Shown: positions 55,773-64,000 of the stretch, piece after piece
How the letters are laid out: each line of letters begins with the position of its first letter
Numbering within the stretch: position 1 is the first letter of the stretch
NCBI GenBank assembly: GCA_903842455.1
Contig: CAIMLX010000094.1
Coordinates: forward strand, 1 to 64,000
DNA length: 64,000 bases
From: an uncultured Hyphomicrobiales bacterium
Lineage (GTDB): Bacteria; Pseudomonadota; Alphaproteobacteria; Rhizobiales; Devosiaceae
Reading direction: 5' to 3'
The notes under the pieces: generated by a model
What the model saw: the letters and a program-made list of their open reading frames with translations, nothing else
Databases searched by the model: none
What the model was told of the DNA's origin: nothing
Made by a program: the position numbers and the translations under genes

Positions 55773-56375
55773 TCAGAATGCCGCCATCTCGCGCTTCACC
55801 TTGTCGATAAAGGCCTTGAGGCCATCCGGCGTCTGGTTGTTCATGTCGTAGAGCGCCAGGTATTTTGGCGGCCGCGGCGTACCGAACGTGATCCACGCCC
55901 AGCGCATCGCCAGCCGCCGCGGCGGGTCGCCCATGATCCAGGTCCGGAACCAGTCACCGCCATAGGTGGTGATGTAGGCGACCTTCTTGATGTTCTTCAT
56001 GTTCGGCACGAGCTTGCCCTTGTCGGACTCGGTGCCGCCGATCAGCACGAAGGACACGCCGGGCAGGAAGATGCGGTCGAAAAAGCCCTTGAGGATCGCC
56101 GGATAGCCGTAGTTCCACACCGGATGGACGAACACGATCTTGTCGCAGGCGCGGAGCCTGTCGACATAGGGTTTGATCTCCGGCGTCAGGTTGCCCGGCA
56201 CGTCATGGTACTCGAGCCGTTCCGTGCGGCTCATCACCGCGCGGAACTCCTCGTCGTAAAGGTTGAGCGCATCCACCTCGTCGCCCTTGGCGCGCAGCGT
56301 CTCGCAGGCAGCGTTGAACAAAGCGCGGTTGTAGCTGGTTTCGACCGGGTGGGCGTGGACGACAAGGACCTTCAT
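55773..56375 (-). CDS. NAD(P)H dehydrogenase, flavodoxin-like (NQO1 type)
   Basis: A 200-residue flavodoxin-fold oxidoreductase (NQO1/KefF/MdaB-like). The FMN or FAD phosphate loop is VLVVHAHPVETSYNRAL, followed by FVHPVWNYGYPAILKGFFDRIF and the TTYGGDWFR segment. These reduce quinones or other electrophiles with NAD(P)H. It is the last gene of the minus-strand operon and overlaps the FAD gene by four bases, so it likely takes part in the same pathway as the ABC importer. Confidence 0.9.
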   Translation of the reverse strand: MKVLVVHAHPVETSYNRALFNAACETLRAKGDEVDALNLYDEEFRAVMSRTERLEYHDVPGNLTPEIKPYVDRLRACDKIVFVHPVWNYGYPAILKGFFDRIFLPGVSFVLIGGTESDKGKLVPNMKNIKKVAYITTYGGDWFRTWIMGDPPRRLAMRWAWITFGTPRPPKYLALYDMNNQTPDGLKAFIDKVKREMAAF

Positions 56376-57781
56376 TCGGCGGCGGTACCCAGCGTGTAGA
56401 GGCCGGTGAACAGCCAGGTGCGGCCCGAGTCGAAGTCGAAATCCGGGTCGTCCCAGGCGATCATCTTGCCGGGGTTCAGGATGCCCTTGGGGTCGGCTTC
56501 CTTCTTGAACTGCAGTTGCGCCCGGTCGGTCTTCTTCATGCCGCCTTCCTCGAGGGTGTAGCGGTGTGGGTTAAAGACGAGGCAGCCATTCGCTTCATGC
56601 AGCCGGATGATTTCTTCGAGCCGCTCCTCGGAGGTGTAGCGCACCACCGGCAGGCCGGAGAACACGATGCGGCCGTCGAAGCGGGTCATCTCGATATGCA
56701 TGGGCATCTCGTCGCCGAACGTGTCGACCGCCCACTGGACGTGCGCGAGGTCCGGATACTGGGTCTGGAGGTACGTGATGGTCGGGTCGATCTTGAGGCC
56801 GCGCAGGGTGGTGTGGTTCCAGGCGAGCTCGTAGATCGGCGGCAGCTTGGCCTTCGTCTCGGCGTCCAGCGTTGCCGCGTTCACCAGCATGTCGCCCTTG
56901 TGGAATTCTACGAAGTCCACCATCGCCGGCACGGCGGCGGGCGCCATCATCAGCAGCACCACCGACTGCTCGCGCGAGCGGATATAGGGGCGGTGGCGGT
57001 TGAAATAGTCATGCGCCAGCGGCGCCGCGACAGGCGAGATTTCCTTGCACAGCAGGCCATCCTGCCGCGCCACCTGCTCGGCAAAGGCGCAGGCCTCCAT
57101 GATCGAATCGAAGCCGACCATCATGTCGACCCAGTCGTAATGCGCCGTCAGCGGCATCTCGGCTTCGACGATGATGCCGTTGGTGCCGTAGGCATGCGCG
57201 ACCTTGAGGATGTCCGGCCCCGTGAGGTCGAGCACGCGCGGCTCGGCCTCGCAGGTCACGACCTTGAGCCCGAGGATATTGCCGAAATTGCGCAACCCGC
57301 CCCAGCGGATCGACCCGACGCCGCCCGAGCCGCCGGCGATGAAGCCGCCAAGGGTGGCCATGCGGTAGGTCGAGGGGTGGAAGCGCAGCTCGCCGTTCAC
57401 GGCGTGCGTCGTCGCCTCGTCGAGCTTTTCCATGATCACGCCGGCCTCGGCGCGGACGCGGTCGTTCTCGATCTTGAGGACCTTGTCCATGTTGGTCAGG
57501 CTGAGCATCGCGCCACCCGAAAGCGGCATGGCCTGCCCGTAATTGCCGGTACCGGCGCCGCGCGGCGTGATCGGCACCTCGTTGGCGAACGCCGCCTTCA
57601 GCGTCGTCACCACTTCCTCGGTCGAGCGGGGGGAGACGACGAGTTGCGCCGTGACGCCGTCGAGCTGCGCCTTGAGCCGCGGCGAATACCAGTAATGGTC
57701 GCGGCTCTTCTGCTGCACGATGCGCGCATTGTCTTCGACCGGAATGTCGCCGAGCGCGGCGCGGAAGCCTTCGATGTTCAT
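56372..57781 (-). CDS. FAD-binding oxidoreductase (GlcD/D-lactate dehydrogenase type)
   Basis: A 469-residue PCMH-type flavoenzyme. The FAD domain has PITPRGAGTGNYGQAMPLSGG and the later GGFIAGGSGGVGSIRWGGL, and the C-terminal half fits the glycolate/D-lactate oxidase group, ending with RTDRAQLQFKKEADPKGILN-like residues (PKGILNPGK). No iron-sulfur partner is nearby. It lies four bases after the amidohydrolase gene in the operon. A hydroxy acid or similar intermediate is a reasonable but unproven substrate. Confidence 0.88.
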   Translation of the reverse strand: MNIEGFRAALGDIPVEDNARIVQQKSRDHYWYSPRLKAQLDGVTAQLVVSPRSTEEVVTTLKAAFANEVPITPRGAGTGNYGQAMPLSGGAMLSLTNMDKVLKIENDRVRAEAGVIMEKLDEATTHAVNGELRFHPSTYRMATLGGFIAGGSGGVGSIRWGGLRNFGNILGLKVVTCEAEPRVLDLTGPDILKVAHAYGTNGIIVEAEMPLTAHYDWVDMMVGFDSIMEACAFAEQVARQDGLLCKEISPVAAPLAHDYFNRHRPYIRSREQSVVLLMMAPAAVPAMVDFVEFHKGDMLVNAATLDAETKAKLPPIYELAWNHTTLRGLKIDPTITYLQTQYPDLAHVQWAVDTFGDEMPMHIEMTRFDGRIVFSGLPVVRYTSEERLEEIIRLHEANGCLVFNPHRYTLEEGGMKKTDRAQLQFKKEADPKGILNPGKMIAWDDPDFDFDSGRTWLFTGLYTLGTAAE

Positions 57782-57785
57782 CTTG

Positions 57786-59102
57786 TTACTCCATCAGGTC
57801 GTCGAGTTCGCGGTAATCCGGTAGCGTCGTGTCGATCGCCTTGCCTTGACGCAGGACAATCCGATCAGCTTGCGGTCGCGAGTTCAGTTCGGTCCAGGTG
57901 CGGGCGCGGAACAGCACAAGGTCGGCCGGAGTGCCTGGCTCGATCACTGCCTTGTAGGCAAACCCGGCATGCGCGGCGGGCGCACTGCCGACGGCCCGCA
58001 CCCAGTCCCACGCCATGTCCTGCGGGTGGTCGAACTGCAGGATGCGCGCGCCCTCGCGCAGCACTTCCATGCCATCGAGGTCGCCATAGGCATAGAACGG
58101 GTCGCGCGTATTGTCCGACGCGATGGCGACGACCGCGCCGGCCGCCTTGAACTCGTTGAGCAGCGTCGCGCCCCGCCGGATCGGCGTGCGGACCCGGCCG
58201 TTGCCGTTGTCGCGATCCTGCAGGTAGATGTTGCACATCGGCAGCGAGACAATGGCGATGCCCGCCTCCACCGCCTTGTCGATGGTGGTGCGCACGGTGC
58301 GCTCGTCCTGCACGGTCAGCACGCAGCAATGCCCGGCCATCACCTTGCCTGTGTAGCCGGTTTCCAGCACCGCCTCGGCGAGGTGGAGCAGGGCGTGGGC
58401 ATCCGGGTTGCCGGTCTCGTCGGTGTGGAGGTCGAGGTCGATGCCAAGCTCGCCCGCCTTTTCGACCACGCGCAGCATGGCTTCCTTCGAGCGGTCGAAG
58501 GTGGCCACCGAGCCCCCCATCAGGCCGCCCGAGGCTTTCACCTGCCGCGCCACGGTGTCTAGTTCATGCGGGGTGACCAGCGTGTCCGGCCCGACGATTG
58601 CCGCGGCCTGCAATTCGATGCGACCGGCCCACTTGTCGCGCATCTTTTCGAACAGCGCCCAGCTGATCTCGTGTTGCGGCGGGGCGGAATCGAGATGGGT
58701 CCGGATGGCGGCGGTGCCGTGCGCAAAGGCGCAGCGCAGCGCAAAGTCGAAGCGGCGCTCGACGTCCTCGGCCGCCCACATCCTTTCCCGGTCATTGGCG
58801 ACGGCAAGCAGCGCGCCCATCCAGGTGCCGTCCGGGTTCTCCTTGCGCGGCCAGATCTGCCCCTTGTCGAGATGCGTGTGGATGTCGACGAAAGCTGGCA
58901 GCACCAGTCCCTGATCCATCTCGTGCGACGGCCCGGAAATCGGGGCGCTGCCGGCGGGCCGGATGGCAGCGATCCTGCCATCCGCGATCTCGATATCGAC
59001 AGAGGCCACCGAGCCGTTGCCGATGCTGCCCATGGCAGCCGCCGGCACCCGGGCGTTTCGGAGGGTGACGGTGCCGGTGGAGAGAGACGGAGTGCCGAAC
59101 AC
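57786..59102 (-). CDS. Amidohydrolase of the cytosine deaminase (CodA) type
   Basis: A 438-residue metal-dependent hydrolase. The HxH metal motif is H75/H77 in FVDIHTHLDKG, further ligands are in DLHTDETGNPDAH and VMAGHCCVL, and the catalytic Asp is in IASDNTRDPFYAYGDLDG. This is the order seen in CodA and related triazine and pyrimidine deaminases. The substrate is probably a cyclic amide or amidine, but cannot be set. It lies between the permease gene (3 bases) and the FAD gene (4 bases) in the same operon. Confidence 0.88.
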   Translation of the reverse strand: MFGTPSLSTGTVTLRNARVPAAAMGSIGNGSVASVDIEIADGRIAAIRPAGSAPISGPSHEMDQGLVLPAFVDIHTHLDKGQIWPRKENPDGTWMGALLAVANDRERMWAAEDVERRFDFALRCAFAHGTAAIRTHLDSAPPQHEISWALFEKMRDKWAGRIELQAAAIVGPDTLVTPHELDTVARQVKASGGLMGGSVATFDRSKEAMLRVVEKAGELGIDLDLHTDETGNPDAHALLHLAEAVLETGYTGKVMAGHCCVLTVQDERTVRTTIDKAVEAGIAIVSLPMCNIYLQDRDNGNGRVRTPIRRGATLLNEFKAAGAVVAIASDNTRDPFYAYGDLDGMEVLREGARILQFDHPQDMAWDWVRAVGSAPAAHAGFAYKAVIEPGTPADLVLFRARTWTELNSRPQADRIVLRQGKAIDTTLPDYRELDDLME

Positions 59103-59105
59103 CGC

Positions 59106-59978
59106 CTAGTTCTCCCGCCGGATGGCGCTCTCGTGCCAGCGATGGAGCGAGAACCAGGCGATGAAGGAGGTGATGCCGAAGATGGCGATACCGGTCGATG
59201 TCAGCAGAATCAGCGCTGCGAAGAGGCGCGGAATGTTGAGCCGGTACTGCGCTTCGAGCAGGCGGAAGGCGAGGCCCGAACCCTGTCCGGCGGTACCGGC
59301 GGCGAACTCCGCCACCACCGCGGCGATCAGCGCCAGGCCACCCGCAATCCGCAGACCCGCCATGAAGTAGGGCAGGGCGGCCGGCAGCTTGAGGTAGATC
59401 AGCGTCTGCCAGCGCGAGGCGCCATAGAGGTCGTAGAGGTTGAGCAGGTTGTGATCGACGCTCTTCAGCCCCGCCACCATGTTCGACAGGATCGGGAAGA
59501 AGGCGACGAGGAAGGCGATGATCAGCAGCACCGACTGCGTGTCATGCACGTAGATGAGCAACAGCGGCGCAATCGCGATGACCGGCGTCACCTGCAGGAT
59601 GACCGCATAGGGGAACAGCGCCAGTTCGATCCACTTGGATTGCACCAGCAGGATGGCCATCGCCACCCCGCCGATCAGCGCCAGGGTCAGGGCCGTGACG
59701 GTGATCCTGAGCGTGACCATTAGCGCCGGCAGCAAGGTGGGCCAGTCGTTCCACAACGACAGGACCACGTCGGCCGGCGTGGGCAGGATGTACTTCGGGA
59801 TGTTGTTGAGCACGACCGTGAAGTGCCAGGCGACGATCGCCAGCAACAGCATGGTGACCGGCACCACGATACGCATGACCTTCTCGGTCGAGGAGGTGCG
59901 TGGCGCCACAATGGCGACGGCGCTGTCGGTGCCCGCTTCGTCGGAGGTGCCGGGACCGGCCTGTTGAACTGCGCTCAT
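59106..59978 (-). CDS. ABC transporter permease
   Basis: A 290-residue inner-membrane permease of the nitrate/sulfonate/taurine (SsuC/ThiX) type with about six helices. The EAA-like loop is in LYDLYGASRWQTLIYLKLPAALPYF. The N-terminal 30 residues are polar. I chose the ATG at 59978, overlapping the ATPase stop by one base; the longer frame runs into the ATPase gene antisense-free but out of its own frame. With the neighbouring ATPase and binding protein it forms one importer. Confidence 0.93.
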   Translation of the reverse strand: MSAVQQAGPGTSDEAGTDSAVAIVAPRTSSTEKVMRIVVPVTMLLLAIVAWHFTVVLNNIPKYILPTPADVVLSLWNDWPTLLPALMVTLRITVTALTLALIGGVAMAILLVQSKWIELALFPYAVILQVTPVIAIAPLLLIYVHDTQSVLLIIAFLVAFFPILSNMVAGLKSVDHNLLNLYDLYGASRWQTLIYLKLPAALPYFMAGLRIAGGLALIAAVVAEFAAGTAGQGSGLAFRLLEAQYRLNIPRLFAALILLTSTGIAIFGITSFIAWFSLHRWHESAIRREN

Positions 59979-60808
59979 CAGTGCGTCCCCCCGCCGGCGT
60001 GAATGGCGTCGTGCAGTGCCGTCGAGACCTCGTGGGTCGCGGCGCGATAGGCTTCCGACGTACGGTATTCGGCGGTGCGTTCGCCGGAATTGTCGAGCGG
60101 CAGGTCGGCGAAGACCTGGCCAGGGCGGGCCTTCATCACCACGATGCGGTTGGAGAGGTAGACGCTCTCGAATACCGAGTGGGTGACGAAGATCACGGTG
60201 ACGCCGGACAGCTTCCACAGGCGCAGCACGTCGTCGTTGAGCTTCTGCCGGGTGATCTCGTCGAGCGCCGCGAAGGGTTCATCCATCAGCAGCAACTTGG
60301 GCTTGGTCACCAGTGCGCGGGCGATCGAGACGCGCATCTTCATGCCGCCCGACAGTTCGCGCGGATAGGCATCGGCGAAATCGGCGAGGCCCACCGAGGC
60401 CAGCATTTCCATGATGCGCGGCCGGGCTTCCGCCTTGCTGACGCGGGTCAATCGCAGCGGCAGGTAGACGTTGCCGAACACCGTTTGCCACGGCATCAGG
60501 GTCGGTTCCTGGAACACGAAGCCGATATCGCCCTGCGGCAGTCCCTTGGAATTGATCTGGCTCGAGGGCCAGTCGATGCTCCCCGTGGAGGCACTGCCCA
60601 GGCCTGCGATGATGCGCAGGGCGGTAGATTTGCCGCAGCCCGAGGGCCCCAGCAGGCTGAGGAACTCTCCGCGCTCAACGTCAAGCGACATGTCCTTGAG
60701 CGCCAGCGTACCGTTGGAAAACACCTTGGAGACGTTCCGCATCGAAACGACGAGGCGGGACGCACCGGCAGAACGCTGCGCCGAAGCGGCGGCTGAAATA
60801 TCAGTCAA
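59978..60808 (-). CDS. ABC transporter ATP-binding protein
   Basis: A 276-residue ATPase of the SsuB/TauB/ThiZ group. Walker A is LLGPSGCGKST, the signature is ELSGGMKMRVSIARAL, Walker B is LLLMDEPFAALDE, and the H-loop is IFVTHSVFES. The longest frame begins with TTG at 60808; an ATG at 60742 (MRNVSKVF) is another start, and neither has a clear ribosome site. It is 66 bases after the binding protein gene and overlaps the permease gene. Confidence 0.94.
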   Translation of the reverse strand: MTDISAAASAQRSAGASRLVVSMRNVSKVFSNGTLALKDMSLDVERGEFLSLLGPSGCGKSTALRIIAGLGSASTGSIDWPSSQINSKGLPQGDIGFVFQEPTLMPWQTVFGNVYLPLRLTRVSKAEARPRIMEMLASVGLADFADAYPRELSGGMKMRVSIARALVTKPKLLLMDEPFAALDEITRQKLNDDVLRLWKLSGVTVIFVTHSVFESVYLSNRIVVMKARPGQVFADLPLDNSGERTAEYRTSEAYRAATHEVSTALHDAIHAGGGTH

Positions 60809-60874
60809 ATTGAAAAGCCCAGGTTAGGGTCGAACGGCGCGGGCTCCATGCCCGCGCCGAGAGGATCGCTTGTC

Positions 60875-61879
60875 TTACTTTACGAGGTCCTTGCCAACAC
60901 CCTGGCAGACGTTATCAAGGCTATAGGCCTGCGAAACATCGAGGCCTTCGGGGAAGAGGCCGACGGCCTTCATCTGCTCGTAGAAGCCGTTCCAGCGGTC
61001 CGCGGTCATGCAGCCGATGCCGTTGGCTTCCGCATCGCCCGAAACGACGATGCCCAGTTCCTTCATCTTGGAAATGCCGAAGGCGATCTGCTCGTCCGTC
61101 ATGTCCGGATTGTCGGTCTTGATCAGGGCGTTGGCGGAGGCGTTGTCGCCGTAGAGGTAGTTGTACCAGCCGATGATCGAGGCCTCGACGAAGCGCTTGG
61201 CGACGTCCTGGTTGGCGTCATACCAGGGCTTCATCACCTCGATGGTGGTCGAGTAGGGGGCAAAACCGTTGTCGGCCAGCAGGAACTCCTGCGGCTTGAA
61301 ACCGGCCTGCTTCTCGATCTCGAGCGGCTCGGAGGTCACGTAGCCCTGCTGGATCGCCATCTTGTCCGCAATGAACGGCGCCGGGTTGAAGGTGTAGGGC
61401 TCGAACTTCTCGTCGGTGAACGCGGGATAGGCCGACTTCATCCACGAGAAATAGGAGATGAACCCGTCCTTGGAGAGGATGTACTTGGAGGCCCCAGCGA
61501 GGTCCTCGAACTTCTCGAAACCGGCATCCGGGTGGGCCAGCAGAACCTGCGGATCCTTCTGGAAGATCGAGGCGATGGTGAGGGTCGGGATGCCTTCCTT
61601 CACGGCGTCGATCGCGGTGGTCATGCCACCCATGTAGAAGTCGATCTGGCCGCCGATCAGCAACGAGCGGTTGGCGCCCTGCGGCCCGCCCTGGCGGATG
61701 GTGACGTCAAGGCCGTACTTGGCATACGTGCCATCGGCGACAGCCTGGTAGAATCCGCCATGCTCGGCCTGGGCCAGCCAGTTGGTGCCGTAGCTCACCT
61801 TGTCCTGCGCGACCGCGCCGGTAGTCCCCAAGGCCAGCGTAACCAGCCCTGCGGCCAGAATCTTGTTGAAGTCGACCAT
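60875..61879 (-). CDS. ABC substrate-binding protein, NMT1/THI5-like
   Basis: A 334-residue periplasmic binding protein with a signal peptide (KILAAGLVTLALGTTGAVAQ). The body is of the NMT1/THI5 type (NWLAQAEHGGFYQAVADGTY, then IRQGGPQGANRSLLIGGQID), a family that binds pyrimidines, thiamine precursors, sulfonates and other organic anions. GGGAGA precedes the ATG at 61879. It is the first gene of the six-gene minus-strand operon and diverges from the RidA gene. The ligand is not predictable from sequence alone. Confidence 0.92.
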   Translation of the reverse strand: MVDFNKILAAGLVTLALGTTGAVAQDKVSYGTNWLAQAEHGGFYQAVADGTYAKYGLDVTIRQGGPQGANRSLLIGGQIDFYMGGMTTAIDAVKEGIPTLTIASIFQKDPQVLLAHPDAGFEKFEDLAGASKYILSKDGFISYFSWMKSAYPAFTDEKFEPYTFNPAPFIADKMAIQQGYVTSEPLEIEKQAGFKPQEFLLADNGFAPYSTTIEVMKPWYDANQDVAKRFVEASIIGWYNYLYGDNASANALIKTDNPDMTDEQIAFGISKMKELGIVVSGDAEANGIGCMTADRWNGFYEQMKAVGLFPEGLDVSQAYSLDNVCQGVGKDLVK

Positions 61880-61981
61880 TGCAGTCTCCCTGTTGGCCGG
61901 ACGATAGGTCCCCCATCCGGCGCCATCGATTTTTTCGTGCCCCTGGGCACACCAAGCCATTCATTCCGCGCCCGGCGCTAA

Positions 61982-62057
61982 AAGGAAAGCCCAAAAATGC
62001 GTCACTCCGAAAACTGCCTTCGGTTTAGGCAGCGCAGTTCAGATTGGGGCTTTCCTT
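61982..62057. promoter_or_regulatory. Nested inverted repeats between divergent operons
   Basis: AAGGAAAGCCC (61982-61992) and GGGCTTTCCTT (62047-62057) are perfect complements. Between them lies a second hairpin, CTGCCT (62014-62019) with AGGCAG (62027-62032). It sits in the 223-base gap that controls both the ABC operon and the RidA operon, so it may be an operator or a structured leader. Confidence 0.5.
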
Positions 62058-62102
62058 CCGTGTCGTTTGACGCTTAGCTGAGCATATACCTCGGGGGCCG
62101 TT

Positions 62103-62492
62103 GTGCATAAGTCGCTTTCACCAAGCTCCATTCATCCGCCATTCGCGCCTTACAGCCCCGGTATCGAGGTCAGTTCACGCTCGCGTTTCGTCTTCGTTTC
62201 CGGCCAGTTGGGCATCGACAAGGACGGCGTTGTTCCGCCCGATGCCGCCGGTCAGGCCCGCGTCGTCTTCGACAATATCAGGGCGATTCTCGGCGAGGCC
62301 GGAATGGGACTCAAGGATATCGTGAAGCTCAACGCCTACGTCACCGGCCGCCAGCACATGCGCGGCTACATGGACGTGCGCAACGCGCTGTTCGCGGAGC
62401 CGTATCCGGCCTCCACCCTGATGATCGTCGGTGGCTTCACCCGCGAAGAATTCGTCGTCGAGATCGAAGCGATCGCCGCTTCGCCCGGCTGA
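62103..62492 (+). CDS. RidA family protein
   Basis: A 129-residue member of the YjgF/YER057c/UK114 family, with FVFVSGQLGIDKDGVV, the VVFDNIRAILGEAGM helix, DIVKLNAYVT, and PASTLMIVGGF before VEIEAIA. The position of the deaminase arginine (Arg105 in E. coli RidA, motif PARS) holds Ser104, so archetypal imine deaminase activity is not expected. Other Rid groups share this feature. The start is GTG at 62103. It begins a plus-strand set with the creatininase gene. Confidence 0.9.
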   Translation: MHKSLSPSSIHPPFAPYSPGIEVSSRSRFVFVSGQLGIDKDGVVPPDAAGQARVVFDNIRAILGEAGMGLKDIVKLNAYVTGRQHMRGYMDVRNALFAEPYPASTLMIVGGFTREEFVVEIEAIAASPG

Positions 62493-62509
62493 AACTGCAG
62501 AGACCTGAC

Positions 62510-63304
62510 ATGACCTACCGCAAGATCTGGTGGAACGACTTTTCCGCCTTCGACTTCCACGGCCTCGATCCGAACAGGACGATCGCGGTGTTCCCGACCG
62601 CTGCCGTCGAGCAGCACGGCCCGCATCTTCCTCTGGGTACGGATACGATCATCAACCAGGGTCACCTCGACCTGCTGGTCGAGCGGGTGCCGAAGGACCT
62701 CGACATCCGTATCCTGCCGGTGCAGGCGATCGGCAAATCCAACGAGCACATCTGGCAGACCGGCACGCTGAGCCACACCGCCACCAACCTCATCGATGCA
62801 TGGACGCAGATCGGGCTCGAGATCGCCCGGGCGGGGATTAAGAAGGTGGTGTTTGTCAATTCGCACGGTGGCAACGTCTCGATCCTCGACATCGTGGCGC
62901 GCGAGCTGCGGGTGAAGGCCGGCATGCTGGCAGTGAAGACCGGCTGGAGCCAGTATTGGCCCAAGGATATCTACTCCGACATCGAGAACCGCCACGGCAT
63001 CCACGGCGGCGACAGCGAGACCTCGGTGGTGATGCACCTGCGCCCCGAACTGGTGAACCTCGACAAGCTGCAGGATTATCCTTCCGTCGCGGCGCGCGAC
63101 GAGCAGGCCTACAAGTACATGCGGCCGACGGGGCCGACGAGCTATGCTTGGATCGCCAGCGATATCCACCCGCTCGGCGCGGCGGGCCAGGCGCATCTGG
63201 GCACGGCCGACAAGGGCCGGGTCACGGTGGAGACTGCAGTCGACGCGTTCATCGAACTGTTGCGCGAGGTCGAGCGCTATCCGTTGCCGGGGGCCGAGCG
63301 CTAG
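62510..63304 (+). CDS. Creatininase family hydrolase
   Basis: A 264-residue metal-dependent amidase. E34, H36 and D45 in AVEQHGPHLPLGTDT fall at the same numbers as the metal ligands of Pseudomonas creatininase. NSHGGN (H119) and HGGDSETS (E170) complete the site. The family also includes formamide hydrolases and a cyclic-lactam hydrolase, so creatinine is not assured as substrate. It lies 17 bases after the RidA gene and 41 bases before the HAL-like gene. Confidence 0.92.
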   Translation: MTYRKIWWNDFSAFDFHGLDPNRTIAVFPTAAVEQHGPHLPLGTDTIINQGHLDLLVERVPKDLDIRILPVQAIGKSNEHIWQTGTLSHTATNLIDAWTQIGLEIARAGIKKVVFVNSHGGNVSILDIVARELRVKAGMLAVKTGWSQYWPKDIYSDIENRHGIHGGDSETSVVMHLRPELVNLDKLQDYPSVAARDEQAYKYMRPTGPTSYAWIASDIHPLGAAGQAHLGTADKGRVTVETAVDAFIELLREVERYPLPGAER

Positions 63305-63345: not shown

Positions 63346-64000
63346 ATGCATCAGCACCCCCCGACGCTCGAGCTTATTCTTCTCAACGGAAAGCCGATGA
63401 GTTTTCGATCGCTCGCCCGTATCGGCCAGCGAGCCGCCACCCTGGTGCCCGATGACGAGGCGATGCGGCGGGTGGACGCGGCGCGGAAGGTCGTGGACGA
63501 CAAGATCGCCCGGGGGGAGCCGGTCTACGGCACCACCACCGGCGTCGGTGCAATGAAGGATGTCGAGTGGTCGCCCGAGGAGATGGAGACCTTCAACATG
63601 GGTCTTGTCCGCGCCCATCACTTTGGCACCGGCGCGCCGTTTCCGAACTCGATCGTGCGCAACGCCATGGCCATTCGCGCCAACACCGCGCTGACCGGCC
63701 GTGTGGGTTGCTCGCGCGAACTGGTCGAGGCGTATCTCAACCTGCTGTCGAAGGACGTGGTGCCCGTCGTCCGGCGCACCGGCTCGATCGGCACAGCCGA
63801 TATCGGTCTGATGGGCCAGATCGGCGCGGTGCTGACCGGCGTGGGCGAGGCGGTGTACCAGAACCGCCGCATGTCGGCAGAGGCAGCGCTGTCCGAAGCC
63901 GGGCTGAAGCCGGTGCGGATGCAGGCGCGCGACAGCCTCGCCTCGATCTCGGTGAACGCCGTGGGCTTTGCCGCGGCGGCCGAAGCGACCCGCTCCGCCG
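63346..64000 (+). CDS. HAL/PAL family protein without the MIO triad, 5' part
   Basis: The first 218 residues of an aromatic amino acid lyase homologue, cut by the window end. The N-terminal LILLNGKPMSFRSLARIG, GEPVYGTTTGVGAMKD (Tyr61, the Tyr53 position of HAL) and FNMGLVRAHHFGTG (His91, the His83 position) are retained. The MIO-forming Ala-Ser-Gly of GSxGASGDL is replaced by Thr150-Ala151-Asp152 in TGSIGTADIGLMGQIG. It therefore cannot form the standard MIO cofactor. The ATG at 63346 is preferred over 63397 because the upstream residues align to the family. It is the third gene of the RidA operon. Confidence 0.88.
   Translation, partial: MHQHPPTLELILLNGKPMSFRSLARIGQRAATLVPDDEAMRRVDAARKVVDDKIARGEPVYGTTTGVGAMKDVEWSPEEMETFNMGLVRAHHFGTGAPFPNSIVRNAMAIRANTALTGRVGCSRELVEAYLNLLSKDVVPVVRRTGSIGTADIGLMGQIGAVLTGVGEAVYQNRRMSAEAALSEAGLKPVRMQARDSLASISVNAVGFAAAAEATRSA

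Follow-up and report, generated by a model that had tools for sequence, protein, structure and literature searches.

The window analysed here is a stretch of 64,000 nucleotides (G000:C94:1-64000) in a genome of 4.56 Mb and 280 contigs, and it ended within a gene for a lyase of the histidine ammonia-lyase (HAL) family (Table 1). As the sequence-only reading had anticipated, the gene could be completed from the downstream sequence, with a frame that was open through the window end and encoded 517 amino acids; a TTG was present 9 bases upstream of the ATG. The PF00221 profile covered the protein almost from end to end (295 bits, cut-off 27.3), and this score, together with the structure model of an ortholog, placed it in the HAL/PAL superfamily. 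The nearest named relatives, among the best 80 of 269 named loci, were Devosia proteins with 85-87% identity. None of the NCBIfam models named for ergothionase was matched by the window lyase, three others of its lineage or two lyases of the classic type. As judged by eye, the N-terminus contained no signal-peptide-like stretch, and the protein is apparently cytoplasmic. A second PF00221 gene of the same genome (L001) encoded a canonical HutH with GSVGASGDL; it adjoined a urocanase homologue that scored below the thiourocanate hydratase cut-off (678 vs. 930 bits) and, as judged by eye, a hutI-like gene. The window lyase was rejected as an ordinary HutH because it lacked the Ala-Ser-Gly triad, fell far short of the cut-off of the HutH equivalog model (223.1 vs. 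539.15 bits), and occurred in addition to a separate HutH of the genome.

Beyond the window end, the lyase gene was followed on the same contig and strand by a cluster of genes for a betaine-type ABC transporter, ErtD, ErtE, a thiohydantoin desulfurase and a thiourocanate hydratase, the last four names being NCBI annotations that were assigned via NCBIfam curated equivalog cut-offs. For the ErtE gene, a general model of Zn-dependent hydrolases gave the higher score (630.6, cut-off 486), and the hydratase gene was also over the HutU cut-off (695.3 vs. 375). The binding protein was distantly similar to EgtUC (99 bits), well behind OsmF-like chains. Encoded next to the lyase, this transporter is a putative ergothioneine importer.

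The genes upstream of the lyase (55773-63304) were set apart as neighbours and were not taken as part of the pathway. Matches to this block (at least 40% identity) were found beside the lyase in only six of the best 80 of 269 named loci, with flanks of at most 10 kb that were shorter in some loci, and one of the six was partial, on a 6.6 kb contig. All six were among the seven Devosia loci with Thr150, and because of this restricted occurrence the block was treated as a neighbour.

Table 1. Positions of genes and sequence features on contig C94; positions above 64,000 lie beyond the window.
Feature	Position	Strand	Remark
Flavodoxin-like gene	55773-56375		Upstream block
FAD oxidase gene	56372-57781		Upstream block
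Cytosine-deaminase-like amidohydrolase	57786-59102		Upstream block; 551 bits, cut-off 403
NMT1-type ABC transporter genes	59106-61960		Upstream block
RidA	62103-62492		Upstream block
Creatininase-family gene	62510-63304		Upstream block
MIO-free HAL-family lyase gene (predicted ergothionase, ErtA-like), 5' part	63346-64000	+	ATG at 63346; continues to 64899
Tyr61 codon	63526-63528	+	Equivalent of HAL catalytic Tyr; Tyr in 170/170 aligned rows
Lys71 codon	63556-63558	+	Common to T. denticola ergothionase; Lys in 92/92 ergothionase-like rows
GSIGTADIGLMG segment	63781-63816	+	Counterpart of HAL GSxGASGDLxPL; MIO triad lost, one-residue contraction
OsmF-type betaine-binding protein	64999-65907	+	First gene after lyase; OsmF model 493.2 bits, cut-off 400
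ABC permease	66077-67312	+	After binding protein
ABC ATPase	67309-68247	+	Between the two permeases
Second ABC permease	68244-68984	+	After ATPase
ErtD	69116-70459	+	766.8 bits, NCBIfam cut-off 600
ErtE	70456-71694	+	577.5 bits, NCBIfam cut-off 520
Thiohydantoin desulfurase	71696-72826	+	584.3 bits, NCBIfam cut-off 440
Thiourocanate hydratase	72856-74523	+	1025.8 bits, NCBIfam cut-off 930

The MIO segment and active-site residues

Residues 145-156 of the lyase were TGSIGTADIGLM and residues 146-157 were GSIGTADIGLMG, and both the sequence and the alignment bore out the earlier claim that this motif stands in place of GSxGASGDLxPL and that the MIO-forming Ala-Ser-Gly is absent. Thr150, Ala151 and Asp152 (codons at 63793-63801) had been read as replacing the triad; the positions were correct, but Asp152 does not belong to it. 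HAL G-ASG-D was aligned with G-TA-D in the window lyase, which is one residue fewer, with Thr-Ala in the place of Ala-Ser-Gly, and the column of Asp152 held the Asp after the triad in all 61 MIO-type rows. Because of this one-residue contraction, Asp152 corresponds to the Asp that follows the HAL triad, Asp145. The catalytic Tyr and a His were retained, as had also been noticed, in the form of Tyr61 and His91, the counterparts of HAL Tyr53 and His83.

The residue alignment comprised 170 rows, including 61 MIO-type, 92 ergothionase-like (a group defined by Lys71), 12 other MIO-free, and five short-motif rows. The MIO rows contained GASGD (59) or GACGD (2), and the ergothionase-like rows contained GCAD (81), GTAD (9), GCGD (1), or GEGD (1, Treponema denticola). 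The contraction was detected in 15 of 15 relatives with 37-87% identity from whole-protein searches, all of which also carried the ergothionase-like residues of the window lyase. It was present in 80 of 80 named orthologues as well, a count that is partly by construction because the motif was one of the two scan patterns. These patterns contained the motif and Lys384, and the scan supplied many of the ergothionase-like rows; the following residue counts are therefore partly by construction too. Tyr61, Arg283, and Glu412 were present in all 170 rows, and these three together with His91, Asn204, Leu280, and Lys384 were found in 92/92 ergothionase-like rows, T. denticola among them. Leu280 occupied the column of HAL Tyr280, which held Tyr in 59 of the 61 MIO rows. 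Outside the group that it defines, Lys71 was found in one of 61 MIO rows and in neither the other MIO-free (0/12) nor the short-motif rows (0/5), whereas Lys384 was kept in 12/12 other MIO-free rows and was absent from the MIO (0/61) and short-motif rows (0/5). This pattern suggests that Lys71 is associated with a 2-thio substrate, and Lys384 with MIO having been lost. Contraction, Lys71 and Lys384 together may serve as a rule for re-annotating such genes.

Several other HAL-like lyases were met in the course of the survey. The one MIO row with Lys71 was L068:4562-6697, an MIO-type lyase (GSVGASGDL) located directly upstream of a thiohydantoin-desulfurase-like gene and a thiourocanate hydratase gene over its cut-off; it is perhaps a 2-thiohistidine ammonia-lyase. 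Two Rhizobium plasmids harbored MIO-free HAL-like genes annotated as hutH (L208:6977-8482 and L209:6989-8494) with GSIGAADLAPLA, the neighbours of which were annotated as glycine betaine binding protein, hutC, CoA-transferase, SDR, MaoC, and ornithine cyclodeaminase. Related MIO-free genes annotated as hutH were found in L172, L174, L176, and L197. This group kept Lys384 but lacked Lys71, and may therefore comprise lyases for another betaine. The same contraction, again with Lys384 and without Lys71, was observed in L009, L011, L013, L019, L020, L173, and L178, which were seen in short loci only, and in L198, where a thiourocanate hydratase was absent from the 18 kb read. A hutH-labelled lyase of Agrobacterium (L206:17216-18709) had the motif GSVGYLTH and neither lysine, and this motif also occurred in five genomes of one family.

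Relation to known ergothionases and HAL

By sequence, the window lyase scored best in the PDB against the ergothionase of T. denticola (6s7j, 187 bits); Pseudomonas HAL reached 148.5 bits. In the alignment to HAL and ergothionase that the earlier reading had called for, overall identity was 26.6% to the solved T. denticola enzyme, hardly above the 24.9% to HutH. The T. denticola ergothionase (6s7j, 6s7q) shares the HAL fold and the one-residue contraction of the triad, and matched the window lyase at eight columns (Tyr61, Lys71, His91, Asn204, Leu280, Arg283, Lys384, and Glu412). It differs in its GEGD in place of GTAD, in having Phe in the column of Ser327, and in belonging to another tree clade. 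HutH, both L001 and the Pseudomonas putida structures, shares superfamily and fold with the window lyase, but carries the MIO triad together with Tyr280 and has neither Lys71 nor Lys384.

The classic-type ergothionase-like lyases of Burkholderia arboris (L200) and Paracoccus denitrificans (L204) agreed with the window lyase in the eight active-site columns, Ser327 excepted, and adjoined a thiourocanate hydratase and a desulfurase, as in the window cluster. They were 35-36% identical to the T. denticola enzyme and shared 27-30% identity with the window protein, and they grouped with T. denticola (100/98) in a clade apart from that of the window lyase. Their N-termini (L200:15017-16648 and L204:15142-16803) looked signal-peptide-like by eye, suggesting a periplasmic lyase, in contrast to the window protein; the pathway may therefore run with either a periplasmic or a cytoplasmic lyase.

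In a tree of 35 rows, the window lineage formed one clade (100/100) and the classic ergothionases, among them T. denticola and the L200 and L204 lyases, another (100/98); the two together made up one side of a branch (94/90) that was not starred and came with a long-branch warning. A tree of 50 rows in which T. denticola alone represented the classic type gave the joint group 97/93, also with a warning of long branches meeting. The structure model of an 86% identical ortholog had TM-scores of 0.85 to 6s7j and 0.84-0.85 to HAL, and two HAL chains ranked first and second by E-value, with 6s7j third. The mean pLDDT of the model was 79, with low-confidence stretches including 64-72, 145-150, and 400-415, so it was not used for geometry.

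Distribution of the lyase and its gene cluster

The lyase (at least 76% identity) occurred in 10 of 41 genomes, its own included, and the thiourocanate hydratase was over its cut-off in exactly the same 10. Two wider samples were searched with at most three candidates scored per genome. Among 385 genomes of the class, the lyase (at least 38%) was found in four, and the hydratase in the same four and in G086, where the lyase adjoining it was of the MIO type. Among 398 genomes of the phylum, the lyase (at least 54%) was found in five, and the hydratase in the same five and in G686, where the 20 kb that were read contained no lyase. All remaining lyase matches in the genome searches had at most 33% identity. 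Gene cluster and co-occurrence together link the lyase genetically with thiourocanate hydratase and the downstream enzymes.

The best 80 of the 269 named loci included Devosia, Rhizobium, Martelella, Pelagibacterium, Salinarimonas, and others. Their fetched stretches contained the hydratase in 65 cases, ErtD, ErtE, and the desulfurase in 68 each, and the binding protein in 32. The 15 loci without hydratase consisted of eight that held part of the cluster, some of them ended by contig ends, and seven from Rhizobium and its kin in which the lyase stood alone in the fetched stretch. In one of these seven, strain CC-CFT758, the hydratase, ErtD, and ErtE were located on another replicon, a plasmid. 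In its record, the thiohydantoin desulfurase of this Rhizobium strain (L202:10542-11629) apparently falls into two reading frames. Plasmid-borne clusters of hydratase, desulfurase, ErtD, and ErtE were also found in Paracoccus aminophilus, Thalassospira marina, and Neorhizobium, and the 12 kb around them (a shorter stretch at one record end) contained no lyase. No paper title on ergothioneine genes of Devosia was among the matches listed.

Proposed reaction and alternative explanations

According to passages of the literature, ergothionase forms trimethylamine and thiourocanic acid without MIO (PMC13405746), and it is counted elsewhere among the known TMA-releasing enzymes (PMC8364193). Those described as definitively identified belong to Burkholderia, Cupriavidus, A. 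radiobacter, and T. denticola (passage in PMC13405746), and for A. radiobacter, further degradation to glutamate is mentioned alongside the named enzyme (passage in PMC7653990). The A. radiobacter ergothionase named in both papers (PMC13405746; PMC7653990) may share the window lineage, given that a large share of the best 80 of 269 named loci is from Rhizobiaceae. In a 2026 paper, a BLAST search for ergothionase with the Burkholderia protein gave similarities to HAL/PAL/TAL only (PMC13405746); with about 27-30% identity to classic-type proteins, the present lineage could be missed by such a BLAST.

With high confidence, the window lyase is predicted to be an MIO-free ergothionase, apparently cytoplasmic, that would convert ergothioneine into trimethylamine and thiourocanate by 1,2-elimination. 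This assignment is well supported, with the substrate predicted from genetic context and residues. Points that weigh against it are the low identity to the solved enzyme, the unstarred joint branch and the long-branch warnings, the two HAL chains ranked ahead of 6s7j, the higher hydrolase score of the ErtE gene, the HutU score of the hydratase, the seven loci with the lyase alone, the hydratases found without this lyase (G086, G686, and the plasmids), and the dependence of the residue counts on the scan patterns. The sequence-only reading had suggested an ergothionase-like elimination of trimethylamine without MIO, and this suggestion is strengthened by the residues common to T. denticola and, above all, by the downstream pathway genes. 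In the proposed mechanism, Arg283 would hold the carboxylate, Tyr61 and Glu412 would provide acid/base catalysis, and the two lysines, Lys71 and Lys384, would engage the 2-thioimidazole and the site vacated by MIO. With a leaving group that is a quaternary ammonium from the start, the reaction would need no electrophilic cofactor. Ergothioneine would enter through the adjoining betaine-type ABC importer, and thiourocanate would be converted to glutamate via thiourocanate hydratase, thiohydantoin desulfurase, ErtD, and ErtE. It is possible, though rather doubtful, that the alphaproteobacterial lineage represents a second, cytoplasmic type of ergothionase far from the Treponema/Burkholderia type, perhaps with another preferred thiohistidine betaine. 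The lysine pair would then derive from a single loss of MIO or have evolved separately, with Lys71 reading the thione and Lys384 filling the place vacated by MIO.

Action on a modified substrate, S-methyl-ergothioneine or ergothioneine sulfonate, instead of ergothioneine itself appears improbable. A related Agrobacterium cluster (L206) comprises ErtD, ErtE, a betaine-type ABC transporter and an MIO-free lyase of its own, and its hydratase and desulfurase pass the S-methyl models (976.5, cut-off 880; 536.3, cut-off 450). An ergothioneine sulfonate pathway has also been published and is cited for A. radiobacter in a review. However, the hydratase and desulfurase of the window cluster were under these S-methyl cut-offs (745.9 and 282.1, respectively) and over the plain thio ones, so the S-methyl pathway was rejected for this cluster, and the L206 lyase has another, shorter motif and neither lysine. 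The suggestion that the protein might be a new MIO-free lyase with a different reaction, on an unrelated amine, could draw on the low identity (26.6%) to the one characterised MIO-free enzyme compared and on MIO-free HAL-like genes without ergothioneine genes in the stretch read (L197, L198, L208, and L209). It found no support and is very improbable given the conserved cluster, the 10/10 co-occurrence with thiourocanate hydratase, and Lys71, which sets the window lyase apart from the other MIO-free groups; the protein fits a known kind of enzyme. Least credible of all is a degenerate or miscalled histidine ammonia-lyase, although the annotation of a Rhizobium sp. SL42 relative names it only an aromatic amino acid ammonia-lyase. 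The 15/15 relatives with the contraction rule out a sequencing error at 63790-63800 that would restore ASG, as well as a pseudogene, and the open frames, the many invariant residues, and the low HutH equivalog score likewise oppose this explanation.

As an ergothionase, the window lyase very probably catalyses the first step in degrading the antioxidant ergothioneine, which makes it a known kind of enzyme, not a new one. Its lineage occurs in several genera yet was found in only 4 of the 385 sampled genomes of the class. In this way, a HAL-like gene whose reaction was unclear may be given a defined and testable place in ergothioneine catabolism, with a likely transporter beside it.
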